Source: a virus. From it: 35,794 nt of DNA. Below the pieces are notes generated by a model that saw only the letters and a program-made list of their open reading frames with translations, did no database searches and had not been told where the DNA came from. Positions 128-35,444 of this stretch are shown here, piece by piece. Numbering within the stretch: the first letter of the stretch is position 1; each line of letters starts with the position of its first letter. The stretch spans positions 1 to 35,794 of the IMG/VR virus record IMGVR_UViG_3300027763_000015, one strand, 5' to 3'. A program made the translations under genes and the position numbers.

Positions 128-1968
128 AGGTCGCAGAGATATTCGAGGGAGTTATTAGGCATATTGAATATATCTCAGATGCAGATGTCGCATACGACAC
201 CGCATGTGAGAATCAGGTCACCTATGGTGAAGGTTACATCCGTGTACTAACTAAATATTGCGACGACAATACATTTGATCAAGATATCTACATTGGTCGC
301 ATCCGCAATTCCTTTAGCGTGTACATGGACCCTACAATCCAAGACCCAACTGGCGCTGATGCTGAATGGTGTTTTATTACAGAGGATATGACAAAAGCTG
401 AATACGAGCGTCAATTCCCTGATGCTGCACCAATTTCATCAATTATGCAGCAAGGTGTAGGCGACTCTTCACTAAGCCAATGGCTAACAGAAGATACAGT
501 CCGTATTGCAGAGTATTTTTACATAGATCATACACCTTCTAAGCTAAATCTATACCGCGGCAACATTTCTTTAGTAGAGAATAGCCCTGAAGATAAGCAA
601 ATGAAAGAGATGGGTCAAAAACCTATCAAGTCACGTACTGCTGACGTTAAAAAAGTAAAGTGGCTAAAGACAAATGGCTTTGAAATTTTGCAAGAACAAG
701 AGTGGGCAGGTTGCTACATCCCTGTCGTGCGTGTAGTTGGTAACGAGTATGAAGTAGATGGACGATTGTACGTGTCTGGCCTTATACGTAATGCAAAAGA
801 TGCACAACGTATGTACAACTACTGGGTTTCACAAGAAGCTGAAATGTTGGCATTGGCGCCAAAAGCACCATTTATCGGTTACGGCGGTCAATTTGAAGGC
901 TATGAGTCTCAATGGAAAACTGCAAACACGACAAATTGGCCTTATTTAGAGGTTAATCCTGACGTAACAGATGGTGCAGGTAGTGTTTTACCTTTACCGC
1001 AACGTGCGCAACCACCAATGGCTTCTAGCGGTCTGTTACAAGCAAAAGCAGGCGCTTCAGACGATATTAAATCATCTACAGGTCAATATGACTCTAGTTT
1101 AGGTGCAACAAGCAACGAACGCTCAGGAAAAGCGATTTTAGCAAGAGAAAAACAAGGCGATACGGGTACATACCACTATATTGACAATTTAGCACGTGCT
1201 ATTCGCCATATTGGGCGTCAATTAGTGGACTTAATCCCAAAAATTTACGATACAGAACGTGTAGCACGTATTATTGGCATTGATGGTGAAGTAAAATCAG
1301 CAAAAATTAATCCTGAACAACCTGAACCAATCAAGAAAATAGTGAACGAAGCAGGCATTGTAATTGAGAAAATCTACAATCCTAGCGTCGGTAAGTACGA
1401 CATTGCGGTGTCTACTGGCCCAAGTTACATGACAAAACGTCAAGAATCACTAGATGCGATGAGCCAATTATTGCAAGGCAACCCACAATTGTGGCAAGTG
1501 GCTGGCGATTTGTTTGTTAAGAACATGGATTGGCCTGGCGCACAAGAAATGGCTAAACGTTTTGCTAAAACGATTGATCCTAAGCTATTAAATGATGTAG
1601 ATGAGAACCCAGCATTGGCTGCCGCACAGCAACAAATGGAAGCAATGGGTAAAGAGCTGGATCAGCTACATGGCATGCTACAAAACGTTAGCAAGTCGAT
1701 GGAAGCGCAAGATTTACAGATTAAACAGTTTGATAGTGAAGTTAAAGCATACGATGCTGAAACTAAACGTATTAGTGCAATTCAAGCGTCTATGTCACCA
1801 GAACAAATACAAGACATTGTAATGGGTACGGTACATGGTATGATTACAAGCGGGGACTTAGTAGGCGAAATGCCAGGTCGAGACCAAGATGTAGCAGGCG
1901 CACCTGAAATGCCTAACGAAATGCAAGAACAACAACCAATGGCGCCACCTGAAGGGATGCAACAATGA
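1..1968 (+). CDS. portal protein, C-terminal 655 residues (continues from 35437)
   Basis: This is the main part of the head portal, the dodecameric ring through which DNA is packaged and ejected and to which the tail attaches. The frame is open from base 1. Joined through the circular overlap to the start at 35437, the protein is 732 residues, close to the 725 of phage P22 gp1. The segment with NEQRQNRP followed by VKVIPVDD is typical of P22-type portals. The C-terminal 150 residues are rich in Gln, Glu and Met, look helical or coiled-coil, and would fit the P22 barrel region. The stop overlaps the next start by 4 bases (ATGA). It sits among terminase, scaffold and coat genes as expected. The break is a linearisation artefact, not a truncation. 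Confidence 0.93.
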   Translation, partial: TINARPCLTINKLPQHVHQVTNEQRQNRPSVKVIPVDDNADVEVAEIFEGVIRHIEYISDADVAYDTACENQVTYGEGYIRVLTKYCDDNTFDQDIYIGRIRNSFSVYMDPTIQDPTGADAEWCFITEDMTKAEYERQFPDAAPISSIMQQGVGDSSLSQWLTEDTVRIAEYFYIDHTPSKLNLYRGNISLVENSPEDKQMKEMGQKPIKSRTADVKKVKWLKTNGFEILQEQEWAGCYIPVVRVVGNEYEVDGRLYVSGLIRNAKDAQRMYNYWVSQEAEMLALAPKAPFIGYGGQFEGYESQWKTANTTNWPYLEVNPDVTDGAGSVLPLPQRAQPPMASSGLLQAKAGASDDIKSSTGQYDSSLGATSNERSGKAILAREKQGDTGTYHYIDNLARAIRHIGRQLVDLIPKIYDTERVARIIGIDGEVKSAKINPEQPEPIKKIVNEAGIVIEKIYNPSVGKYDIAVSTGPSYMTKRQESLDAMSQLLQGNPQLWQVAGDLFVKNMDWPGAQEMAKRFAKTIDPKLLNDVDENPALAAAQQQMEAMGKELDQLHGMLQNVSKSMEAQDLQIKQFDSEVKAYDAETKRISAIQASMSPEQIQDIVMGTVHGMITSGDLVGEMPGRDQDVAGAPEMPNEMQEQQPMAPPEGMQQ

Positions 1969-20800: not shown

Positions 20801-21241
20801 TTACCACCCCAACTGATTAAAACCACTAGCGATACTCACAACTGTTTTCTTGTGAGTTCTTTTTGGCGCAGCAAGTGGATAGTCTAATAAACGATAGACA
20901 CCTGGCGGATCCTCTTCGCGTTTTCTTTTCTTAACGCCTGATCCAGCAAAGCGTTCTACCGTCTCTTTTGCTAACTGTTCTACTGATTTAAGTTTGAACG
21001 GCATATCAGGGTTAGCATAATACTGTGACACCATGATAGCCTTAAGTCTATGTTCTAAGACTTTATCTTTATGTAGCTTGATGTAACCTTTATCAATCAA
21101 ACGATGTAAATGGTTGCTCAACTGATCTTTACCTAAGTTAAACGCATCCATCAACATACGACGCGTCTGAGGCTTTTCTGCCATAAGATTATACATTGAT
21201 TCTTTTAATCGTTCATACTTTAACTGCTGTTCATAGCTCAT
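20801..21241 (-). CDS. winged-helix-like DNA-binding protein (146 aa)
   Basis: A 146-residue basic protein. Residues about 5-60 form a likely winged helix (KESMYNLMAEKPQTRRMLMDAFNLGKDQLSNHLHRLIDKGYIKLHKDK), in which the QLSNHLHRLIDKGYI segment resembles a recognition helix plus wing. The C-terminus is rich in Lys and Arg (GVKKRKREEDPPG). It could be a transcription regulator or a replication-initiation accessory. A strong GAGGAAGAGG site lies upstream, and it overlaps the previous gene by 11 bases. No lysogeny genes accompany it, so I do not call it a repressor. Confidence 0.7.
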   Translation of the reverse strand: MSYEQQLKYERLKESMYNLMAEKPQTRRMLMDAFNLGKDQLSNHLHRLIDKGYIKLHKDKVLEHRLKAIMVSQYYANPDMPFKLKSVEQLAKETVERFAGSGVKKRKREEDPPGVYRLLDYPLAAPKRTHKKTVVSIASGFNQLGW

Positions 21242-21458
21242 TTTTTGCCTCTTCCTGTACTTGTGCGCCTATCTTTTCTAACACACCGTCGCTTAATAAC
21301 GTAGTGATGTCAACCGCAGAATCAGTTAACTCAATAGCGATAATGTCAACGTAAGTCGCTGCAGGGCTGTCTCCAGTCCCTAGTGGATCACGTTCAACTT
21401 CTACGTCTGCGTAGACATCTAGTTCGATGCCATAAACTTTTACCGTGTATAAACCCAT
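21231..21458 (-). CDS. small acidic hypothetical protein (75 aa)
   Basis: A 75-residue acidic protein beginning GLYTVKVYGIELDVYADVEVERD, with alternating strands and then a helical C-terminus (LSDGVLEKIGAQVQEEAKNEL). I chose the ATG at 21458, which has GGAG 12 bases upstream; an in-frame ATG at 21476 adds six residues but has no ribosome binding site. It overlaps the 46-residue gene upstream and the winged-helix gene downstream, so translation is coupled. No family is recognised. Confidence 0.62.
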   Translation of the reverse strand: MGLYTVKVYGIELDVYADVEVERDPLGTGDSPAATYVDIIAIELTDSAVDITTLLSDGVLEKIGAQVQEEAKNEL

Positions 21459-21580
21459 GATGTTAATTTTCTCCATAATTTAGTTAAATAACTTGGCTCG
21501 TCATCAAACGGAATCCAAGGTGTAGGGTCTACATGACCGAACTTAAAGTTTTGCTCACTCCAAATCTCACGATTGTTCAT
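21440..21580 (-). CDS. small hypothetical protein (46 aa)
   Basis: A 46-residue protein (ATG at 21578-21580, TAA at 21440-21442) starting in a 4-base ATGA overlap with the gene upstream. It is rich in aromatic residues (REIWSEQNFKFGHVDPTPWIPFDDEPSYLTKLW) with a basic end. It fills what would otherwise be the only gap in this tightly overlapping block, which supports it. Function unknown. Confidence 0.55.
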   Translation of the reverse strand: MNNREIWSEQNFKFGHVDPTPWIPFDDEPSYLTKLWRKLTSWVYTR

Positions 21581-21771
21581 GGGCGTACTGCTCCTTTCAA
21601 TATCTCTACACGCTCACGTGCAGCACGTAAGATAGTGTAGCGTTGATGTAAACGTTGTAGCATAGAGATACGCTTCTCGCCTTCACGTTCGTTTTCTAAC
21701 AAAGCTAACACTTCATCCTCGCTTAACGTAGTAAGCTGCGCATTAAGTGATCGCCAGTTCAATCTAGTCAT
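21577..21771 (-). CDS. small helical hypothetical protein (64 aa)
   Basis: A 64-residue charged helical protein. ATG 21771 is chosen because AAAGG lies 7 bases upstream and it overlaps the previous stop (TAATG); a longer in-frame version would read through the upstream gene. The pattern (TLSEDEVLALLENEREGEKRISMLQRLHQRY) fits a coiled coil or helical hairpin. It has an acidic first half and a basic second half. No family is recognised. Confidence 0.62.
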   Translation of the reverse strand: MTRLNWRSLNAQLTTLSEDEVLALLENEREGEKRISMLQRLHQRYTILRAARERVEILKGAVRP

Positions 21772-21926
21772 TAGTAAACCTTTCCAGAAAATACATGTGT
21801 GATACCGCCAACATCTCTTACTTCTACTGTACATCCGTATCGGTCTTTGTTAACCAATACGACTGTATATGCGCCCACTATAAAGCTTAAAAATAGGCAT
21901 GTCAAGAATATCTTTACATCATTCAT
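21771..21926 (-). CDS. small single-pass membrane protein (51 aa)
   Basis: A 51-residue protein with one N-terminal membrane helix (about 5-24, FLTCLFLSFIVGAYTVVLV) and a short soluble tail with VRDVGGITHVF. ATG 21926 follows AGGGGG and overlaps the upstream stop by 4 bases. The gene lies between replication-type genes, so a membrane anchor or an early host-interaction role is possible, but nothing in the sequence shows which. Confidence 0.6.
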   Translation of the reverse strand: MNDVKIFLTCLFLSFIVGAYTVVLVNKDRYGCTVEVRDVGGITHVFSGKVY

Positions 21927-25542: not shown

Positions 25543-27485
25543 TGATACTGTGGCTCGATTTTGAGTCACGTAGCCGCTGCGACTTACCTAGTCGCGGCGT
25601 CTACAACTACGCTCAAGACAGTAGCACCGATGTGCTATGTATGTCCTATGCGTTTGATGATAGTGACGTCATTACATGGACGCCAGATCAGCCGTTCCCC
25701 GAAGAGGTGCGTAACTTCAAGGGTCAAATACGTGCGCACAATGCGACGTTTGAGCGCCTAGTCTTTTGGTATGTCTTACAGATTAACTTTGATTTAGAAC
25801 AGTTCTATTGCACAGCTACCCAAGCTCGTGCTAACTGTGCGCCTGGCTCACTAGAGGATGTTGGACGTTTCTCAGGGGCCACGATGCGTAAAGACCACCG
25901 TGGTAAGCAGTTGATTAGACTGCTATCACTCCCTCGTGCTGACGGCACGTTTAATGATGACCCTACCTTGATGGCTGAGATGATTGCCTACTGTGAGCAG
26001 GACGTTAAAGTCATGCGCACTATCTCTAAAGCCTTGCGTGACTTATCAGACCAAGAACTTGCAGACTATCATGTCAATGAACGTATCAACGACAAGGGTG
26101 TGCTGCTAGATAAAGACCTTGCCGACTCCGCTATCCGCTACGCAAGCGTAGAACTAGAAGAGATCGAGCGCATCGTGTCTGAGGTAACGAAGGGTGCTAT
26201 CACGTCAGTACGTTCACCTCGTATGCGTGAGTGGGTGCAAGAACGCGTTGGCCCTGAAGCCCTCAAGCTAATGACCATTATTAAAGATGGAGACAAGAAG
26301 ATGTCTATTGACAAATCCGTTCGCGCTAACCTATTACTGTTAGCCGAAGAGAACCCCGACGAAGTGCCAGCCGATGTCGCTGACGTTATCCAATGTGCTG
26401 ACGATCTGTGGGCATCATCTGTCGCTAAGTTCAACCGCCTATCCCAGCTCGCTGACGAAGAGGACTACCGAGTACGTGGTGCGTTTGTGTTCGCTGGTGG
26501 TAGCGCTACAGGCCGTGCGTCTAGCTATGGCGCTCAGGTTCACAACTTCACACGTAAGTGTGCTAAAGACCCAGAGGCTGTTAGACATGCTATGGTGCGA
26601 GGTCATGCGATTGTGCCGACATACGGCAGACGCATCACCGATGTGCTAAAAGGTATGCTACGTCCTGCGTTAATCCCTGCTAAGGGTAAGTCCCTAGTCG
26701 TTGCCGATTGGAACGCGGTAGAGGCTAGACTAACCCCTTGGCTTTCCAATGATCCACGTGCAGAAGAGGTGCTAGATGTTTTTAGATCAGGTCGTGATAT
26801 TTATATTAGAGAAGCAGCGGCAATATTTCACCAAGCCGAAACGGAAATTACGCCAGACAAACGGCAAATTGGAAAAGTGGCAATATTGTCATGCGGCTTT
26901 GGCGGTGGCGTGGGTGCTTTTGGTGCTATGGGCCGCAATTACGGCATTATACTTACTGAATCAGATGCTAAACGTACAGTCGATGCTTGGCGTCGCGCAA
27001 ACCAGTGGGCTGTTAATTATTGGCAGTCACTAGAGTCTGCCTACACACGGGCGATGCGTAATGTTGGCAAAGAGTTTAGCGTAGGCCGTGTTACCTACTT
27101 ATACGACGGCGTACATTTATGGTATGCTTTGCCTTCGGGTCGAATACTTTGCTATCCACATGCAAAGCTAGAACCTGAAGGGGTGACTTACGCTAAAGCA
27201 GCGTGGAAGCCCTCTGCTGACGCTACCGAGTGGCCTCGAGCTAGATTATGGAAGGGCTTGGCGTGTGAGAACATCACCCAGGCCGTTGCTAACGATCTAC
27301 TCCGACACTCACTAAGAAACTTAGATGACGTGATATTACACGTACACGATGAGATTGTAATCGAGACCGATACACCGAATGAAGTGCTACAACGAATGAG
27401 CGATGTAATGTGTACGCCCCCTGAATGGGCTAAGGGTCTCCCTTTGTCTATTGAAGCCGATATAATGACGAGGTATGGAAAATGA
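25542..27485 (+). CDS. DNA polymerase A family with 3'-5' exonuclease
   Basis: A 647-residue replicative polymerase. The exonuclease domain has Asp6 and Glu8 (LDFES), HNATFE and YCEQD with Asp154. The polymerase domain has motif A VADWNAVEARL (Asp389), motif B KRQIGKVAILSCGFG (Arg441, Lys445) and motif C HVHDEIVIE (Asp603). Aligned with E. coli Pol I around R754-K758-F762-Y766, the position of F762 is Leu449 and Y766 is Phe453. The Leu type is reported for viral polymerases with slower, more accurate synthesis. No 5'-3' exonuclease domain is present. The start overlaps the previous stop (TAATGA) and the stop overlaps the primase start. Confidence 0.93.
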   Translation: MILWLDFESRSRCDLPSRGVYNYAQDSSTDVLCMSYAFDDSDVITWTPDQPFPEEVRNFKGQIRAHNATFERLVFWYVLQINFDLEQFYCTATQARANCAPGSLEDVGRFSGATMRKDHRGKQLIRLLSLPRADGTFNDDPTLMAEMIAYCEQDVKVMRTISKALRDLSDQELADYHVNERINDKGVLLDKDLADSAIRYASVELEEIERIVSEVTKGAITSVRSPRMREWVQERVGPEALKLMTIIKDGDKKMSIDKSVRANLLLLAEENPDEVPADVADVIQCADDLWASSVAKFNRLSQLADEEDYRVRGAFVFAGGSATGRASSYGAQVHNFTRKCAKDPEAVRHAMVRGHAIVPTYGRRITDVLKGMLRPALIPAKGKSLVVADWNAVEARLTPWLSNDPRAEEVLDVFRSGRDIYIREAAAIFHQAETEITPDKRQIGKVAILSCGFGGGVGAFGAMGRNYGIILTESDAKRTVDAWRRANQWAVNYWQSLESAYTRAMRNVGKEFSVGRVTYLYDGVHLWYALPSGRILCYPHAKLEPEGVTYAKAAWKPSADATEWPRARLWKGLACENITQAVANDLLRHSLRNLDDVILHVHDEIVIETDTPNEVLQRMSDVMCTPPEWAKGLPLSIEADIMTRYGK

Positions 27486-29791
27486 GTGAGTTAAATTTCA
27501 TTGACTATTTAGTAGGTATTGCCCCTGTAGGTGAGACTATTCTTTTAGTTAAACAAAAGCCTTTACTTGATAAGGGCGCTTTGCAATATCATAACGATGG
27601 TGCGATCAAGTGTACGTGGCCTGCGTACTTGCCTGAGCAGGCTAAGATTAAGAAGGGTGATGCTTGGTACGCTAACACCGCCTGCTTTATTGTAGACCGC
27701 TTTGCCGATGGCAAGGTGTCTGCCTCTGCATCTAATTGTGAGCGCGTCGCGTTCATGGTGCTAGATGACGTAGGCACTAAGTCTAAGGTGCCACCGCTGG
27801 CGCCTACATGGATTATCGAGACTAGCCCTGCTAATTATCAGTATGGCTATACTTTTGCGTTAGACGATCAACCTCTGAAGGGAGACTTTAGTGCTGCGAT
27901 TAAAGCCATTGCTGATGCTGGTTTCACGGATGGCGGTGCTATTAACCCTGTCCGTAACTTTAGAGTTGCTGGTAGTGTCAATCTTAAACCTAATCGTGAT
28001 AATTTTGCTTCTAAGCTGATTGAGCTGCACCCTGAGCGTGAGTTCAGTCTGCCTCAGATATGTGAAGCGTTACATGTAACACCTGCACCTGCTGACACCG
28101 CCTCTATCACGTCTATCAGACTTAAAGACGATGGCGGTGACGACGTGCTGAGTTGGATGAGTGCCAATGGTATGATTATCACCCCTGCTAATGGCGAGGG
28201 CTGGATCGGTGTTGTATGCCCTAACAGCGCTAGTCATAGTGATGGTAATCCAGAGGCTAGATACAAGCCCCTAGACCGTTCGTTCTGTTGCTATCATGAA
28301 CATTGTCAAGACCTAGACTCTAAGACCTTCTTATCATGGGTGGCTGATAATGGCGGCCCTAAACACACTCACGGCTTGCGTGAGGAATTACTGGCGGACG
28401 TGATGAACACAGCACTATCTAAGATTGAACCTTCTGACATGTTTACGCATGACGCTGACGACTTAATCGCTGAGGTAGAGCGTAAAGAACTCGGACGTAT
28501 CGAGAAGGCTGACTGGTTTAAGCGCTTTGCTTATATACAAGAGGACGATGCTTATTTCGACCTTATCGAACGCCGTGAGATAAGCCGTTCTACGTTTAAC
28601 GCTCTATTCCGTCACATTGACTGTCGTTCTATCCACACGGCTGCACGTGTATTGCCTGCTGTGTCTTATGATGAGAACCGACAGACGATGGGCGCTAAAG
28701 CACTTGTTGGCATAACCTACGCTGCTGGCGAGACGGTGCTTGTGTCTCGTGACGGTGACATCTATGGTAATCGCTGGCGTGATGCCCGCCCTACTAACTT
28801 GGTAGCAGGTGACATAACCCCTTGGCTAGACCATGCACGTAGCCTAGTGCCTAATGAGGATGAGCTAGAGCATATCCTAGACGTAATGGCGTTCAAGGTG
28901 CAACACCCTGAAATTAAAATAAATCACGCTGTGCTACATGGTGGTGATGAGGGTAGTGGCAAGGACACGTTCTGGGCGCCTTTCCTATGGGCTGTGTGTG
29001 GCGATAACTTGCGTAATCGTGGCATTATGGATAACGATAGCGTGAACTCACAATGGGGCTACCAATTAGAGTCCGAAGTGCTAATTATCAATGAGCTAAA
29101 AGAACCTGATGCTAGTGCTAGACGCCAGCTTGCTAACAAACTCAAGCCTATCATCGCTGCACCGCCTGAGATGTTACCTATCAATCGTAAAGGCTTGCAC
29201 CCTTACATGATGCTAAACAGGGTCTTTGTCCTAGCCTTTAGTAATGACCCTGTGCCTATCAGTTTGGCTAGTCAAGATAGACGCTGGTTCTGCGTATGGA
29301 GTCATGCGCCTAGAATGGAACCTAGTGCTGCCGCTAAGCTTTGGACGTGGTATAAGGCTGGTGGCTTTAGTGCTATTGCTTCGTGGCTTGTGCTACGTGA
29401 CATCTCTAAATTTAACCCTAGTGCTGCGCCTATGATGACTGAGTTTAAGGCTAACCTAGTCGAGCATGGGATGTCGATGGCCGAGAGTTACCTTGTTGAG
29501 CAAATGCGTAATCGTGTCGGAGAGTTTGCGAAGGGTGTTATCGGTTCGCCTTTCCACTCGTTATGTGACAGGCTGGCGGGTTCAGCACCAAGCGGAGTCA
29601 AAGTCCCGCAGGCTGCCTTACTTCATGCGCTTAAAGAGGCGGGGTGGATTGACTGCGGTCGTTTAATGTGTCGTGAATATACAGCCAAAAAACACATCTA
29701 CTGCGCCCCTGAGTTTATCGAGTATAAAAAGAGCGATTTAAGGCGCATGGTTGAAATTACAGAACCGCCTAAAATGGTTGTGATTAAATAA
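27482..29791 (+). CDS. primase-helicase with DUF5906-like C-terminal domain
   Basis: A 769-residue protein. Residues about 85-210 resemble a RepB-like or archaeo-eukaryotic primase region (FMVLDDVGTKSKVPPLAPTWIIETSPANYQYGY, then RNFRVAGSVNLK). A possible zinc-binding segment (VCPNSASH... CCYHEHCQD) lies at about 248-280. The C-terminal superfamily 3-type ATPase has Walker A GGDEGSGKDTFW (Lys494) and Walker B VLIINELKE (Asn537, Glu538). Such proteins make primers and unwind DNA. The start overlaps the polymerase stop by 4 bases. The long C-terminal tail (about 670-769) may be a winged helix. Confidence 0.85.
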   Translation: MSELNFIDYLVGIAPVGETILLVKQKPLLDKGALQYHNDGAIKCTWPAYLPEQAKIKKGDAWYANTACFIVDRFADGKVSASASNCERVAFMVLDDVGTKSKVPPLAPTWIIETSPANYQYGYTFALDDQPLKGDFSAAIKAIADAGFTDGGAINPVRNFRVAGSVNLKPNRDNFASKLIELHPEREFSLPQICEALHVTPAPADTASITSIRLKDDGGDDVLSWMSANGMIITPANGEGWIGVVCPNSASHSDGNPEARYKPLDRSFCCYHEHCQDLDSKTFLSWVADNGGPKHTHGLREELLADVMNTALSKIEPSDMFTHDADDLIAEVERKELGRIEKADWFKRFAYIQEDDAYFDLIERREISRSTFNALFRHIDCRSIHTAARVLPAVSYDENRQTMGAKALVGITYAAGETVLVSRDGDIYGNRWRDARPTNLVAGDITPWLDHARSLVPNEDELEHILDVMAFKVQHPEIKINHAVLHGGDEGSGKDTFWAPFLWAVCGDNLRNRGIMDNDSVNSQWGYQLESEVLIINELKEPDASARRQLANKLKPIIAAPPEMLPINRKGLHPYMMLNRVFVLAFSNDPVPISLASQDRRWFCVWSHAPRMEPSAAAKLWTWYKAGGFSAIASWLVLRDISKFNPSAAPMMTEFKANLVEHGMSMAESYLVEQMRNRVGEFAKGVIGSPFHSLCDRLAGSAPSGVKVPQAALLHALKEAGWIDCGRLMCREYTAKKHIYCAPEFIEYKKSDLRRMVEITEPPKMVVIK

Positions 29792-29816
29792 CAGTTTTAC
29801 AGATGACAGACAAACA

Positions 29817-29843
29817 AAAACGGCCGTTAAGGCCGTTTTCTTT
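29817..29843. terminator. bidirectional intrinsic terminator
   Basis: AAAACGGCC (29817-29825), loop GTTAA, GGCCGTTTT (29831-29839), then CTTTT. The perfect 9-bp stem has A-rich and T-rich flanks, so it can end both the rightward replication block and the leftward small-gene block that converge here. Confidence 0.92.
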
Positions 29844-29862: not shown

Positions 29863-29922
29863 TCACAAGTCATAAATGATAGCGATAAGCCCCGCTATAA
29901 TGGCGGCAGAGATTAAGAGCAT
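29863..29922 (-). CDS. possible 19-residue hydrophobic peptide
   Basis: A very short frame (ATG at 29920-29922, TGA at 29863-29865) whose start overlaps the stop of the gene upstream by 10 bases. The peptide is a single hydrophobic helix (LLISAAIIAGLIAIIYDL). Toxic or regulatory membrane peptides of this size are known in phages and bacteria, but there is no independent proof here. Confidence 0.3.
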   Translation of the reverse strand: MLLISAAIIAGLIAIIYDL

Positions 29923-30140
29923 AGTTTATTCAACTTTAACCACTCTTGAACATAGGCTTTTATTGAGCCGTTAGTAGCAAGTTGCAATAATGACCCGCTT
30001 TTAAAGTCTTTCGGGCGGTCTTTAGTGTCTCGCTTGACTTTGTAAACACTCTTAATGTTTACCCCCTTAAATATGCAAGCATCTTCGAAACTATCGAAAA
30101 TGACGTGTTCGTTACTGTCTCGGTCTAAAACTTTATACAT
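29913..30140 (-). CDS. small hypothetical protein (75 aa)
   Basis: A 75-residue protein. ATG 30140 with GGAG 8 bases upstream is chosen over an in-frame TTG two codons earlier. The first half has an acidic-hydrophobic pattern (YKVLDRDSNEHVIFDSFEDACIFKG), the second is basic (VKRDTKDRPKDFK). Its start overlaps the upstream stop by 8 bases. It belongs to the leftward small-gene block. No family is recognised. Confidence 0.65.
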   Translation of the reverse strand: MYKVLDRDSNEHVIFDSFEDACIFKGVNIKSVYKVKRDTKDRPKDFKSGSLLQLATNGSIKAYVQEWLKLNKLCS

Positions 30141-30300
30141 TTTCAATCTCCATTATTTGATTAAATTGTTTAACCTCAAAAGGTGTTAAATTAAAGTTTT
30201 TTACAATCGCTTCGCATAGCTCAAAAGTGCCGTCGATTAAATTATCGTCTTTCAATTCTTTAATCGTAAATGCGAGCGTTTTTATGTCTGATATGTTCAT
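30133..30300 (-). CDS. small helical hypothetical protein (55 aa)
   Basis: A 55-residue protein (ATG at 30298-30300, TAA at 30133-30135) with helices LAFTIKELKDDNLIDGTFELCEAIVKNF. It overlaps the upstream stop by 4 bases (ATGA) and the next gene by 8 bases. Slightly acidic; no motif. The tight coupling on both sides supports that it is translated. Confidence 0.6.
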   Translation of the reverse strand: MNISDIKTLAFTIKELKDDNLIDGTFELCEAIVKNFNLTPFEVKQFNQIMEIENV

Positions 30301-30524
30301 TCTGTCACCTCTACAATTCTAAAGTCCTCAGCGTCGGGGACGTCAGGCATATTACCCGCCTCAAACTCCGCATCCATGTCATCAAACCAACATCTTAATT
30401 CTGATTCTGCATCCTCACGTGATGGAAACCATGTTGATTCCATTGAGCCATTTACTTCGGTCGACCAAGTATTAGTCCAACCGCCACATAAACAAAATTC
30501 CTGCACTTCATATCTTGTATTCAT
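30297..30524 (-). CDS. small acidic protein with Cys/Trp-rich start (75 aa)
   Basis: A 75-residue, strongly acidic protein. The first 30 residues hold Cys11, Cys13 and several Trp (CLCGGWTNTWSTEVNGSMESTWFPS); the second half is nearly all acidic helices (EDAESELRCWFDDMDAEFEAGN). ATG 30524 has GAGGAG 10 bases upstream. Acidic small early proteins are often inhibitors of host DNA-binding enzymes, but no known inhibitor family is recognised. Confidence 0.68.
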   Translation of the reverse strand: MNTRYEVQEFCLCGGWTNTWSTEVNGSMESTWFPSREDAESELRCWFDDMDAEFEAGNMPDVPDAEDFRIVEVTE

Positions 30525-30526
30525 TT

Positions 30527-30757
30527 TTAGCTCTCCTCTTCGGTTGATTCGTCAATGGCGGGGAATAATTGGTTAACCCAAAATTCAATCTCATCCCAAG
30601 TTATGCCAATTGATGCGTTATAGTTCTCGGCTATCGCTTCCAAAACTGCCTCGCATTGTTCTTGGTTTAGTTCGTCTCTTATTGATTGCACATCTTCAAT
30701 GTGCCATTCGTCAGTTAAATAAAACACCCCGTTTTTATCTTGTGTTAAATGTGCCAT
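30527..30757 (-). CDS. small acidic hypothetical protein (76 aa)
   Basis: A 76-residue acidic protein with a short beta start (FYLTDEWHI), a helical middle (VQSIRDELNQEQCEAVLEAIAENY) and an acidic end (AIDESTEEES). AGAGAGG lies upstream of ATG 30757. Charge and size resemble DNA-mimic or inhibitor proteins in general terms only. No family is recognised. Confidence 0.68.
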   Translation of the reverse strand: MAHLTQDKNGVFYLTDEWHIEDVQSIRDELNQEQCEAVLEAIAENYNASIGITWDEIEFWVNQLFPAIDESTEEES

Positions 30758-30759
30758 GA

Positions 30760-30933
30760 TTATTCGCCTCTCTCAATAATGCTTTCGATTTGCCATCCGT
30801 CAGAGTCTAAGAACTGCCAGTCGAGCGAACCCGTGTCATTTAACACGATTTCATGCGCTTGTTCTTGGGTGTCCGCCTCGACTACGGTCGACTCTGTAAT
30901 TTCTTGCGTTGTATAAACTGTAAAATATGCCAT
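30760..30933 (-). CDS. small acidic hypothetical protein (57 aa)
   Basis: A 57-residue protein (ATG at 30931-30933, TAA at 30760-30762) beginning AYFTVYTTQEITESTVVEADTQEQAHEIVLND and ending with DSDGWQIESIIERGE. The pattern of two strands, one helix and two strands resembles a small alpha/beta fold. The gap to the next gene is 2 bases, and GAGAGG just inside the end of this gene serves as the ribosome binding site of the following one. Confidence 0.62.
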   Translation of the reverse strand: MAYFTVYTTQEITESTVVEADTQEQAHEIVLNDTGSLDWQFLDSDGWQIESIIERGE

Positions 30934-30935
30934 GA

Positions 30936-31118
30936 TTAAAGTTCCTCTCTAAATGTGTTAATTGCGTTTTCAATTCTTGTATTACATTCTGCGCTGATTG
31001 CGAGCATTAAATTAAGGTAGTCGTTTAAGTTCTCGCATCCGTCCAACTCCTCTGCGCTTTGCATCTCCTCTATTACGTTTTCAAGTGTTACGCTTGCTGA
31101 ATAGCTTAATAGTTTCAT
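30936..31118 (-). CDS. small acidic helical protein (60 aa)
   Basis: A 60-residue acidic, mainly helical protein (VTLENVIEEMQSAEELDGCENLNDYLNLMLAISAECNTRIENAINTF). ATG 31118 follows GAGGAG by 9 bases, and the gap to the upstream gene is 2 bases. It has two Cys and no recognised motif. The operon setting and start signal support it. Confidence 0.66.
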   Translation of the reverse strand: MKLLSYSASVTLENVIEEMQSAEELDGCENLNDYLNLMLAISAECNTRIENAINTFREEL

Positions 31119-31120
31119 GC

Positions 31121-31411
31121 TTAATTCTCCTCGTAGTTTCTAACTAAACTGTCAGCGATTTCATACCAATTAACATCGCTCATAAATGCGAGCGCATAAT
31201 CAAGTGCTAGACCTTCAGCTTTACTACCACCAAAAGGTAGTTCGATTATTTCTTCCGCATAATCTTTAAGCGCAAGGCTTAACTCGTAGACATCTGTCAG
31301 CTCAGGGTCGGGATTGCCGAACGCTTCAACCCAATCCATCCCATCGAACATCTCAAGATTTACACGCCATGTGGCGTAGTTTGTCCACCCGTTGTATTTA
31401 GTATTGCTCAT
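31121..31411 (-). CDS. DUF7249-like phage protein (96 aa)
   Basis: A 96-residue protein with the N-terminal NTKYNGWTNYATWRVNLEMFDG, a pattern repeated in small early proteins of many phages that I place with DUF7249. The rest is acidic and helical (VYELSLALKDYAEEIIELP, VNWYEIADSLVRNYEEN). AAGGGG lies upstream of ATG 31411. Its function is unknown. It is the best conserved member of the block, which argues that the whole block is a real phage module. Confidence 0.75.
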   Translation of the reverse strand: MSNTKYNGWTNYATWRVNLEMFDGMDWVEAFGNPDPELTDVYELSLALKDYAEEIIELPFGGSKAEGLALDYALAFMSDVNWYEIADSLVRNYEEN

Positions 31412-31413
31412 GT

Positions 31414-31521
31414 CTAGCCCCTTAGTAGTGGTGAATTATTTAGTGCAAAGTCAAACGAATAGCAAAAGCCCACAAACAGAACTGCAACTAACACATATAA
31501 AACCCAATCGTGCTTTTTCAT
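31414..31521 (-). CDS. 35-residue membrane peptide
   Basis: A short frame (ATG at 31519-31521, TAG at 31414-31416) with a positively charged start (KKHDW), one membrane helix (VLYVLVAVLFVGFCYSF) and a short polar end. It starts in an ATGA overlap with the preceding gene, and the next gene's ribosome binding site is in its last codons. It could be an early membrane-acting peptide. Confidence 0.5.
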   Translation of the reverse strand: MKKHDWVLYVLVAVLFVGFCYSFDFALNNSPLLRG

Positions 31522-31709
31522 GCTATAGCCCTTTCAAAGTTTGGCTTTTCGCCATTAAAATATGCGACTCTAAAACTATGCCAACCCATAGCAGAAGCCG
31601 CTTTTTTTACGCCCTCAATGTCTAGGTTTACATTACAAGCAATTAAAGTTTCCATATAATCTCGGCTTTCGCCTTTTTCTAAAGCATAAATTAAAGTCTC
31701 AGTTTGCAT
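31518..31709 (-). CDS. first gene of the small-gene block (63 aa)
   Basis: A 63-residue protein beginning QTETLIYALEKGESRDYMETLIACNVNLDIEGVKKAASAMGWHSFRVAYF. ATG 31709 follows AGGAG by 9 bases, about 72 bases downstream of the -35 of the strong promoter at 31760-31787, so it is the first translated gene of this block. It looks alpha/beta with a basic C-terminus. No family is recognised. Confidence 0.67.
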   Translation of the reverse strand: MQTETLIYALEKGESRDYMETLIACNVNLDIEGVKKAASAMGWHSFRVAYFNGEKPNFERAIA

Positions 31710-31759: not shown

Positions 31760-31787
31760 ATAATACGCCCTTTTAAAATAATGTCAA
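31760..31787 (-). promoter_or_regulatory. strong sigma70-type promoter for the small-gene block
   Basis: On the minus strand TTGACA (31782-31787), 16-base spacer, TATTAT (31760-31765). The -35 is a perfect match and the -10 matches 5 of 6. This is the best promoter in the genome by eye and is the mark of an early gene block. Confidence 0.85.
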
Positions 31788-31930
31788 CTATTCTTTTAAT
31801 TCTTTACAATATTTAACGTTTTCGCCTTTTGTAGTCGGTTGTTAGTCTTTTGTAGTTATGGTTTTGAGGTGAAATGACTACGCTTAGAGCATTGATGCGC
31901 TTAGCTTGTAGCGGTTTGTCTGTCATGTAG

Positions 31931-31970
31931 TCATTTTATTTAGAAGATATTAAGAGTTTATATATATAAG
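31931..31970. other. AT-rich tract, possible unwinding element
   Basis: This stretch, including TTTATATATATAAG, is markedly richer in A+T than the repeats on both sides. Such tracts next to repeat clusters often serve as the melting site of an origin. No direct test is possible here. Confidence 0.4.
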
Positions 31971-32054
31971 GTGTAAAAGATGTTGTAGCAGTGGCTAGGG
32001 TGCGACTGAAAACGATGTGACTACATGACTACATGACTACATTTTGTCGCCCCG

Positions 32055-32079
32055 TGTTTTTTGCAGCATGCACAAAACA
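32055..32079. other. imperfect inverted repeat between repeat clusters
   Basis: TGTTTTTTGCA (32055-32065) and TGCACAAAACA (32069-32079) are inverted with one mismatch around GCA. It divides the TGACTAC clusters and may be an operator or a structural element. Confidence 0.5.
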
Positions 32080-32198
32080 TGGAAAGGTCATCGCATGACT
32101 ACATGACTGACAAAAGCTAAATGACTACATGACTGACAACCAAGCATGAAACTTTTTCCTCGTGACTACATGACTACCTGACTACCACCAGCATAAAT

Positions 32199-32217
32199 CT
32201 AAATGATAATCATTCTC
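32199..32217. promoter_or_regulatory. Fur-box-like 19-mer
   Basis: CTAAATGATAATCATTCTC matches the classic Fur consensus GATAATGATAATCATTATC at 15 of 19 positions and contains a perfect AATGAT-A-ATCATT inverted repeat. It lies about 100 bp upstream of the terminase promoter, so control by a host iron regulator is possible but untested. Confidence 0.5.
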
Positions 32218-32237
32218 ATGCAGAAAGCTGTTTGCAT
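32218..32237. promoter_or_regulatory. 20-bp imperfect palindrome, operator candidate
   Basis: ATGCAGAAAGCTGTTTGCAT is self-complementary at 16 of 20 positions and is centred on AGCT. It directly follows the Fur-like site, so two dimeric regulators could bind side by side. Confidence 0.4.
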
Positions 32238-35054: not shown

Positions 35055-35169
35055 AGAAGCTTTTAGAGCAAATGTTAAAAAAGAAATTGCTGCGGGTAAG
35101 CCTATTAAGCAAAGCGTAGCAATTGCGTACTCAGCAAAAAGAGAAGCTACTAAAAAAGGTAACAAATGA
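35029..35169 (+). CDS. DUF6496-like small basic protein (46 aa)
   Basis: A 46-residue protein whose ATG (35029-35031) overlaps the endonuclease gene by 26 bases, with AGAGGG 9 bases upstream. The line KKSPSKEAFRANVKKEIAAGKPIKQSVAIAYSAKREA is the signature of a short family present in a great many phages (DUF6496), function unknown. Its stop overlaps the GroES start by 4 bases (ATGA). Confidence 0.75.
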   Translation: MPLKKSPSKEAFRANVKKEIAAGKPIKQSVAIAYSAKREATKKGNK

Positions 35170-35444
35170 GACTTAAACCATTAAGCGACTGCATCGTAGT
35201 AGAGCAAGACGAAGAAAAAGTAAGCAGTATTATTTTTGTACCAGGTGCTAAGAAGTTGTTTAGCGGATATGTACGCGCAATTGGCCCAGGGAAGAAATTA
35301 GAAAATGGAAACTTATCAAATATGGATGTTCAAGTTGGGGATCATATTATGTTTGGTGAATACACAGGTCAAACGACGACTATCGACGGTAAAGATTACC
35401 TAATGATGCGTAACACGGAAGTGATTGGACTGATAAATGAGTGA
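35166..35444 (+). CDS. groES: GroES-like co-chaperonin
   Basis: A 92-residue Cpn10 protein (E. coli GroES has 97). The N-terminal LKPLSDCIVVEQDEEK, the mobile loop with the hydrophobic tripeptide IIF (the place of IVL in GroES) and the beta-barrel segments SGYVRAIGPGKKLENG, MDVQVGDHIMFGEYTG and EVIGLINE fit along the whole length. It would cap host GroEL and help fold phage proteins. No phage GroEL is present. It is placed just before the portal gene and overlaps its start by 8 bases, so it is made with the head proteins. Confidence 0.92.
   Translation: MRLKPLSDCIVVEQDEEKVSSIIFVPGAKKLFSGYVRAIGPGKKLENGNLSNMDVQVGDHIMFGEYTGQTTTIDGKDYLMMRNTEVIGLINE

Follow-up and report, generated by a model that had tools for sequence, protein, structure and literature searches.

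The Rep protein of SaPI and the Cch2 protein of SCCmec carry a C-terminal domain that reads repeats near their own genes (PMC7581432). In the PLE of Vibrio cholerae, the origin repeats are swapped together with the DNA-binding domain of RepA (PMC8263062). Staphylococcal phage K has an early region in which many small genes, few of them with known domains, are expressed together (PMC9241854).

Here, we analyzed the 35,794-base IMG/VR virus record IMGVR_UViG_3300027763_000015 (the window), which stems from a freshwater-type P22-like podovirus, with a focus on a block of small leftward genes (g1 to g10) located beside the gene of a VapE/DUF5906 primase-helicase (Table 1). The block shares with the early region of phage K its many small undescribed genes with few known domains, but it measures about 2 kb, with TerS and the primase gene on either side and a probable origin next to it; a near-constant promoter and a terminal microprotein form its frame, and it is known here from sequence (PMC9241854). 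VapE, like SaPI Rep and SCCmec Cch2, is a protein of the primase-helicase type with direct repeats downstream of its gene and with a C-terminal region as the putative DNA reader, which is proposed here from covariation only; unlike these two, it is encoded by a phage core gene, and its repeats lie beyond the 2-kb cassette (PMC7581432). As in the PLE replicons, the origin repeats and the DNA-reading part of the initiator appear to switch together, whereas the part concerned is not a RepA_N domain but a C-terminal stretch of about 20 residues in the VapE/DUF5906 protein of a lineage of tailed phages, identified by covariation only (PMC8263062).

The block is likely to be a single leftward operon that acts as an exchangeable accessory cassette of this P22-like podovirus. 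New beyond the initial annotation are a near-constant gene of 19 codons at the end of the block and a probable replication origin behind its promoter. Small-gene swapping within a fixed frame between near-identical phages would provide a natural collection of proteins that are candidates for modifying the host, and reading the interval between VapE and TerS is all that is needed to mine it. The near-constant microprotein, as one concrete experimental target, and the covariation of iterons and VapE, which allows a change of initiator specificity to be tested residue by residue, are the parts of the analysis that lend themselves best to testing.

Phage genome and comparison set

Among the window proteins scanned, the portal, coat, tail accessory factor and phage stabilization proteins are P22-like, and the replication genes encode an SNF2-type helicase, a PD-(D/E)XK exonuclease, a family-A DNA polymerase and the VapE/DUF5906 primase-helicase. 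Contig L002 is near-identical to the window (99.98% over 5.3 kb). The phage collection contained no close record, the best TerL matches being phage DSL-LC05 (73%) and a Manatee Spring podovirus (68%). A GroES-like co-chaperonin is encoded downstream of the terminase genes (window positions 35166-35444; phrog_3188, E 2e-15).

Relatives were IMG/VR contigs of the same layout that were found by searches with g3 and with TerL. The main comparison set comprised 49 non-redundant complete VapE-TerS intervals, with a TerL-ascertained subset of 30 blocks, and the scan for g10 covered 57 non-redundant relatives.

Table 1 Coordinates of the block genes and of neighboring features in the window
Feature	Coordinates	Strand	Relatives, evidence or remarks
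g1, 63 aa	31518..31709	-	relative in L213 87%; dN/dS 0.14
g2, 35 aa, single hydrophobic helix by sequence	31414..31521	-	L196 97%, L164 86%; dN/dS 0.03-0.07
g3, 96 aa, acidic, YNGWTNYATW motif, DUF7249-like	31121..31411	-	alignment, profile match, model
g4, 60 aa, acidic	30936..31118	-	L196 93%, L176 40%; dN/dS 0.17
g5, 57 aa, acidic	30760..30933	-	relatives in L086, L180, L181, L184, L189, L191, all divergent
g6, 76 aa, acidic	30527..30757	-	residues 18-66 resemble DUF1380-annotated proteins; L168 53%
g7, 75 aa, acidic, YEVQExCLCGGWTNTWS motif	30297..30524	-	30 IMG/VR loci; alignment; model
g8, 55 aa	30133..30300	-	predicted pI 4.3
g9, 75 aa, basic	29913..30140	-	kept in 9/49 blocks, all close relatives; dN/dS 0.02-0.07 where measurable
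g10, 19-aa membrane peptide MLLISAAIIAGLIAIIYDL	29863..29922	-	last block gene; hydrophobic, ends YDL
Block promoter TTGACA-16-TATTAT	31760..31787	-	11/12 consensus matches
Terminator hairpin GAAAACGGCC-TTAAC-GGCCGTTTTT	29816..29840	-	ends block unit; readable on both strands
VapE/DUF5906 primase-helicase	27482..29791	+	Pfam PF19263, E 2.3e-10; convergent neighbor, putative initiator
VapE residues 726-740 (GRLMCREYTAKKHIY)	29657..29701	+	putative iteron-reading segment; local divergence, covariation with word
Iterons ATGACTAC(A)	31872..32185	.	partly tandem, both strands; between promoter and TerS

Organization of the block

The block (29863-31709) consists of ten leftward genes of 19-96 codons, flanked by the rightward VapE gene on one side and by the divergent TerS/TerL genes on the other. 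Successive genes are separated by -4, +2, +2, +2, +2, +2, -4, -8 and -10 nt, and a Shine-Dalgarno (SD) sequence precedes nine of the ten, which agrees with the overlapping or closely packed frames and the ribosome binding sites that had been described for this stretch. When the count is restricted to ATG genes with a minimum length of 30 aa and a minimum SD of 4 nt, nine genes tile 94% of the unit on the block strand; the tiling is 0 on the opposite strand, and in 500 dinucleotide shuffles it averaged 8% and reached a maximum of 33%, with at most four genes. Coding selection was evident as well, with purifying selection on g1, g2, g3, g4, g6, g7, g9 and g10 (g7 dN/dS 0.20-0.32; for g3 and g6, with saturated pS, pN is 0.25-0.34; other values in Table 1).

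Five products (g3, g4, g5, g6 and g7) have a predicted pI of 4.1 with net charges of -9 to -17, followed by g8, while g9 is basic with a predicted pI of 9.2. The initial annotation had named the genes starting at 30297, 30527, 30760 and 30936 as acidic, which holds for each of them, but its list omitted the equally acidic g3. Its two single membrane helices, g10 and g2, are both single hydrophobic helices by sequence.

The promoter in front of g1 had been called the strongest of the genome. It does have the high score given in Table 1, but it is tied with another site at 21905..21877, whose 17-nt spacer is better. This second sigma-70-like site (TTGACA-17-TATAGT, 21877-21905, minus strand, also 11/12) faces a small leftward gene group at 20801-21834. 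The promoter stretch of the block is conserved in L083, L201, L164, L198 and L087 despite different genes behind it; a simple scan of close relatives did not recover a strong promoter in every one. A comparison with Rfam gave no match.

Features of individual genes

Searches of Pfam, NCBIfam and PHROGs with g1-g9 yielded only sub-threshold matches or matches of unknown function, and no anti-defense family. For g1, the first ~17 residues remain in L087, fused to another reading frame. The family of g3 is the best delineated, with an alignment of 68 members in which N7, G8, W9, N11, Y12, T14 and W15 are invariant. The protein has in common with DUF7249 and phrog_871 the N-terminal WTNYATW motif, but the match spans only about 21 residues, the remaining protein differs, and the Pfam score lies below the gathering cut-off (22.3 bits vs. 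27). The earlier label "DUF7249-like" thus refers to a clear family whose match to the Pfam model is sub-threshold.

The statement that only one gene resembles a known family was too strong, as g6 also resembles DUF1380-annotated proteins of SSU5-type phage-plasmids, with ~45-49% identity over residues 18-66 and an unmatched N-terminus. A tblastn search recovered phage SSU5 and 112 plasmid records at this level of identity over 49 aa, and phrog_10258 was matched with an E-value of 1.5e-7; the resemblance is to annotated members only, with no match to the DUF1380 model in Pfam or NCBIfam. Matches to DUF1638 and DUF1381 were partial and below cut-off and were discarded as chance, and a literature search on DUF7249 and DUF1380 found no functional paper.

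Relatives of g7 reside mostly in other, unrelated phages within long arrays of overlapping small genes, and in one such array (L189) a relative of g5 shortly precedes that of g7. For g8, neither Pfam, PHROGs nor the search for IMG/VR relatives gave anything except copies of the same virus. The structure prediction that had been proposed as a check was run for g3 and g7, and both could be modeled, g3 as an all-alpha protein (pLDDT 90) and g7 with a b-b-b-b-a-b order (pLDDT 92.6), and in the comparison with known folds Foldseek matched neither model to a PDB entry at E <= 0.001 and gave only uncharacterized viral proteins as resembling g7; a PDB sequence search with the profiles of g3 and g7 found nothing useful.

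Exchange of genes within a fixed slot

The slot between VapE and TerS holds a leftward series of small genes in all 49 intervals; in the TerL-found set, it spans 2.1-5.2 kb and has 7-17 called genes. The occupants vary strongly: g6 and g8 occur in one interval each, g1, g4, g5 and g7 in two, and g2 in three. The count for g3 (17/49) is inflated because g3 served as a search query, and it amounts to 8/30 in the TerL-found blocks. Even L082, L083, L198 and L201, with TerL 98-99% identical, share only the genes g9 and g10, while L164 shares g2, g7 and g9, and L196 shares g2, g4 and g9. As the same slot is occupied in the relatives and its content is swapped beside near-identical TerL genes, the block can be regarded as an exchangeable, probably early expressed, accessory cassette.

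The cassettes of the relatives have a diverse content. A beta-clamp-like protein of ~200 aa, which is absent from the window block, occurs in 16 of the 30 TerL-found blocks (e.g., L158:1708-2322). Pfam recognized only 15 families among 130 representative cassette proteins, including GP88, DUF7227, NinX, TreK, DnaA-C, beta-clamp, HNH, DUF932 and DUF6378; RusA is also among the replication proteins in these cassettes. The block of MW202483 contains a C5-methyltransferase, and that of DSL-LC05 a gene annotated as "repressor protein C". PADLOC gave three weak matches only for the 130 proteins, and the assignment of one cluster of relatives' proteins (C23) to TreK was dropped, being unsupported by a direct scan of two members. 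Only 32% of the relatives' cassette products are clearly acidic. Proteins with a DnaA C-terminal (DnaA-box binding) domain are encoded in the blocks of L017, L063, L081, L096, L104 and MW202483, where iteron arrays are weak or absent.

Possible roles of the cassette

The frame of the cassette would be formed by the sigma-70-type promoter at the origin side and by the g10 gene with the terminator at the VapE side, and its cargo by small, individually expendable genes that would be replaced by recombination. The host polymerase would transcribe the block soon after entry, the translation-coupled genes would be made together, and each small protein may modify one host or phage function, such as host defense, replication or the membrane, so that cargo exchange would adapt the phage to different hosts. 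Early timing, the recombination route and the host-directed functions are what we infer. Counting against an exchangeable cassette are the conservation of g9 and g10, which are not exchanged, the few informative families among the 130 proteins, the incomplete recovery of a strong promoter in close relatives, an acidity that is not general, and window block products of which none belongs to a family with an anti-host function.

The initial annotation saw the block as the best reservoir of undescribed biology in the genome, and it is indeed a genuine operon of mostly undescribed genes; the proposed host takeover or anti-defense functions fit by context only. Rapid turnover and small-gene arrays are the usual look of host-interaction genes, and both were found, the arrays around the relatives of g7. 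That the block is mainly a counter-defense or host-takeover island, with the acidic proteins mimicking nucleic acids or inhibiting restriction, CRISPR or RNA polymerase, is a serious possibility that we nevertheless hold to be somewhat doubtful: size, charge and turnover fit, as do the TreK-like protein, the cytosine methyltransferase and the many small undescribed genes of the relatives and the likeness of g6 to phage-plasmid proteins, but no gene matches a known anti-restriction, anti-CRISPR or other anti-defense family, the all-alpha g3 and the small alpha/beta fold of g7 have no significant PDB match, and the acidity is not retained in the relatives' cassettes. Anti-defense is better seen as one of several uses, because these cassettes also carry beta-clamp, DnaA-C, RusA and HNH proteins, and such a role is plausible for some of the cargo. 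The same replication proteins, together with the adjacent iterons and the annotated repressor of DSL-LC05, would be expected if the block supplied helpers and regulators (clamp, DnaA-like, repressor) matched to the host replisome; this is unlikely as its main role, since none of these proteins is present in the window block, the window genome has no DnaA-C domain, and the cargo comes mostly from undescribed families.

Mostly neutral cargo, made up of genes that were acquired horizontally, persist only briefly and serve no consistent function, would account for the very low sharing between close relatives and for g8, which has no relative, but it is improbable given dN/dS values well below 1 in every testable gene, the dense coupling of the genes and the constant frame. 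P22-like phages have a leftward immunity region beside the origin, and the orientation of the block and the DSL-LC05 annotation could suggest that the phage is temperate and that this is its immunity or lysogeny region. This reading is the least probable of all, because no integrase or repressor family was detected among the window proteins scanned, the DSL-LC05 protein has no Pfam match, and no prophage copy was seen in the genome collection, where only three MAG contigs of differing taxa were found. We therefore retain the exchangeable accessory cassette as the preferred reading.

A near-constant membrane peptide

Peptides of 19-25 aa lie below the size range of the usual gene finders. The region of 330 nt past the VapE stop was scanned for strongly hydrophobic peptides of 16-26 residues with the ending hydrophobic-[DE]-[LIM], and 40 of the 57 non-redundant relatives, as well as 25 of the 30 TerL-found loci, have a peptide of the g10 type on the block strand, an exact count that is descriptive because the end motif was chosen after the sequences had been seen. 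Several of the loci that lack it carry near variants. There were no hits in shuffles or on the opposite strand, and other 360-nt windows gave 1.1%, with true cases still included. The pooled pN/pS over sister pairs is 0.15. Thus, g10 is the most constant product of the cassette and its near-constant last gene. It has no SD and overlaps the end of g9, and therefore its translation is likely coupled. A membrane-acting or protease-modulating peptide would be our guess for its function.

A candidate origin and covariation of iterons with VapE

The DNA behind the block promoter is, to judge from its repeats, a probable replication origin. Its iterons are 8-10 bp long, with an AT-rich minimum among them at 31930-31989 (GC 0.23). 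Arrays at the same place are found in most relatives, but their words differ, also at 99% TerL identity, for instance TTGCCTACA in L082, TTGTCCACA in L164 and ATATTGCCA in L083. A Fur-box-like sequence, GAGAATGATTATCATT, lies between the iterons and TerS at ~32199-32220 and is also present in L083, but was not seen in the compared region of L082 or L164.

We lean toward a joint reading in which a family of single-helix peptides of 19-25 aa with a hydrophobic-Asp-Leu end stays near-constant amid exchanged cargo, and in which about 20 residues in the C-terminal part of VapE read the iterons through a simple code, the word and its reader switching together in sister phages. The iterons and VapE would then be origin and initiator. 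Other readers were considered and set aside: DnaA, as no Bac_DnaA_C domain is present in the window genome, and TerS, which is an unlikely reader because its identity in L083, L082 and L201 remains at 96-99% despite their different words.

In the alignments, about 20 residues near the C-terminus of VapE covary with the iteron word. Along its length, VapE is mostly at 90-100% identity in the closest relatives; where the iteron word is a different one, identity drops to 62-75% over the 40-residue window 721-760, and L196, whose word is identical, keeps 100% there. This drop alone is not decisive, because L085, which is more distant overall, also has 75% in that window with nearly the same word. 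When the core VapE identity is accounted for, iteron similarity correlates with the identity of the eight-residue VapE segment (partial r 0.47; 44 loci with arrays, 630 usable pairs, 0 of 2000 permutations), and a scan of eight-residue windows from residue 250 onwards peaks at 722-730 (0.33; median -0.006). At the first position of the segment, M goes with TGACTA (6/6), K with CCACA (4/4) and Y with CCTACA (3/3), and an Arg at the third position goes with ACA in 16 of 17 loci, compared with 6 of 22 loci without Arg; the Fisher p-values of these residue-word pairs range from 1e-4 to 2e-6, for patterns read from the same data and for non-independent loci.
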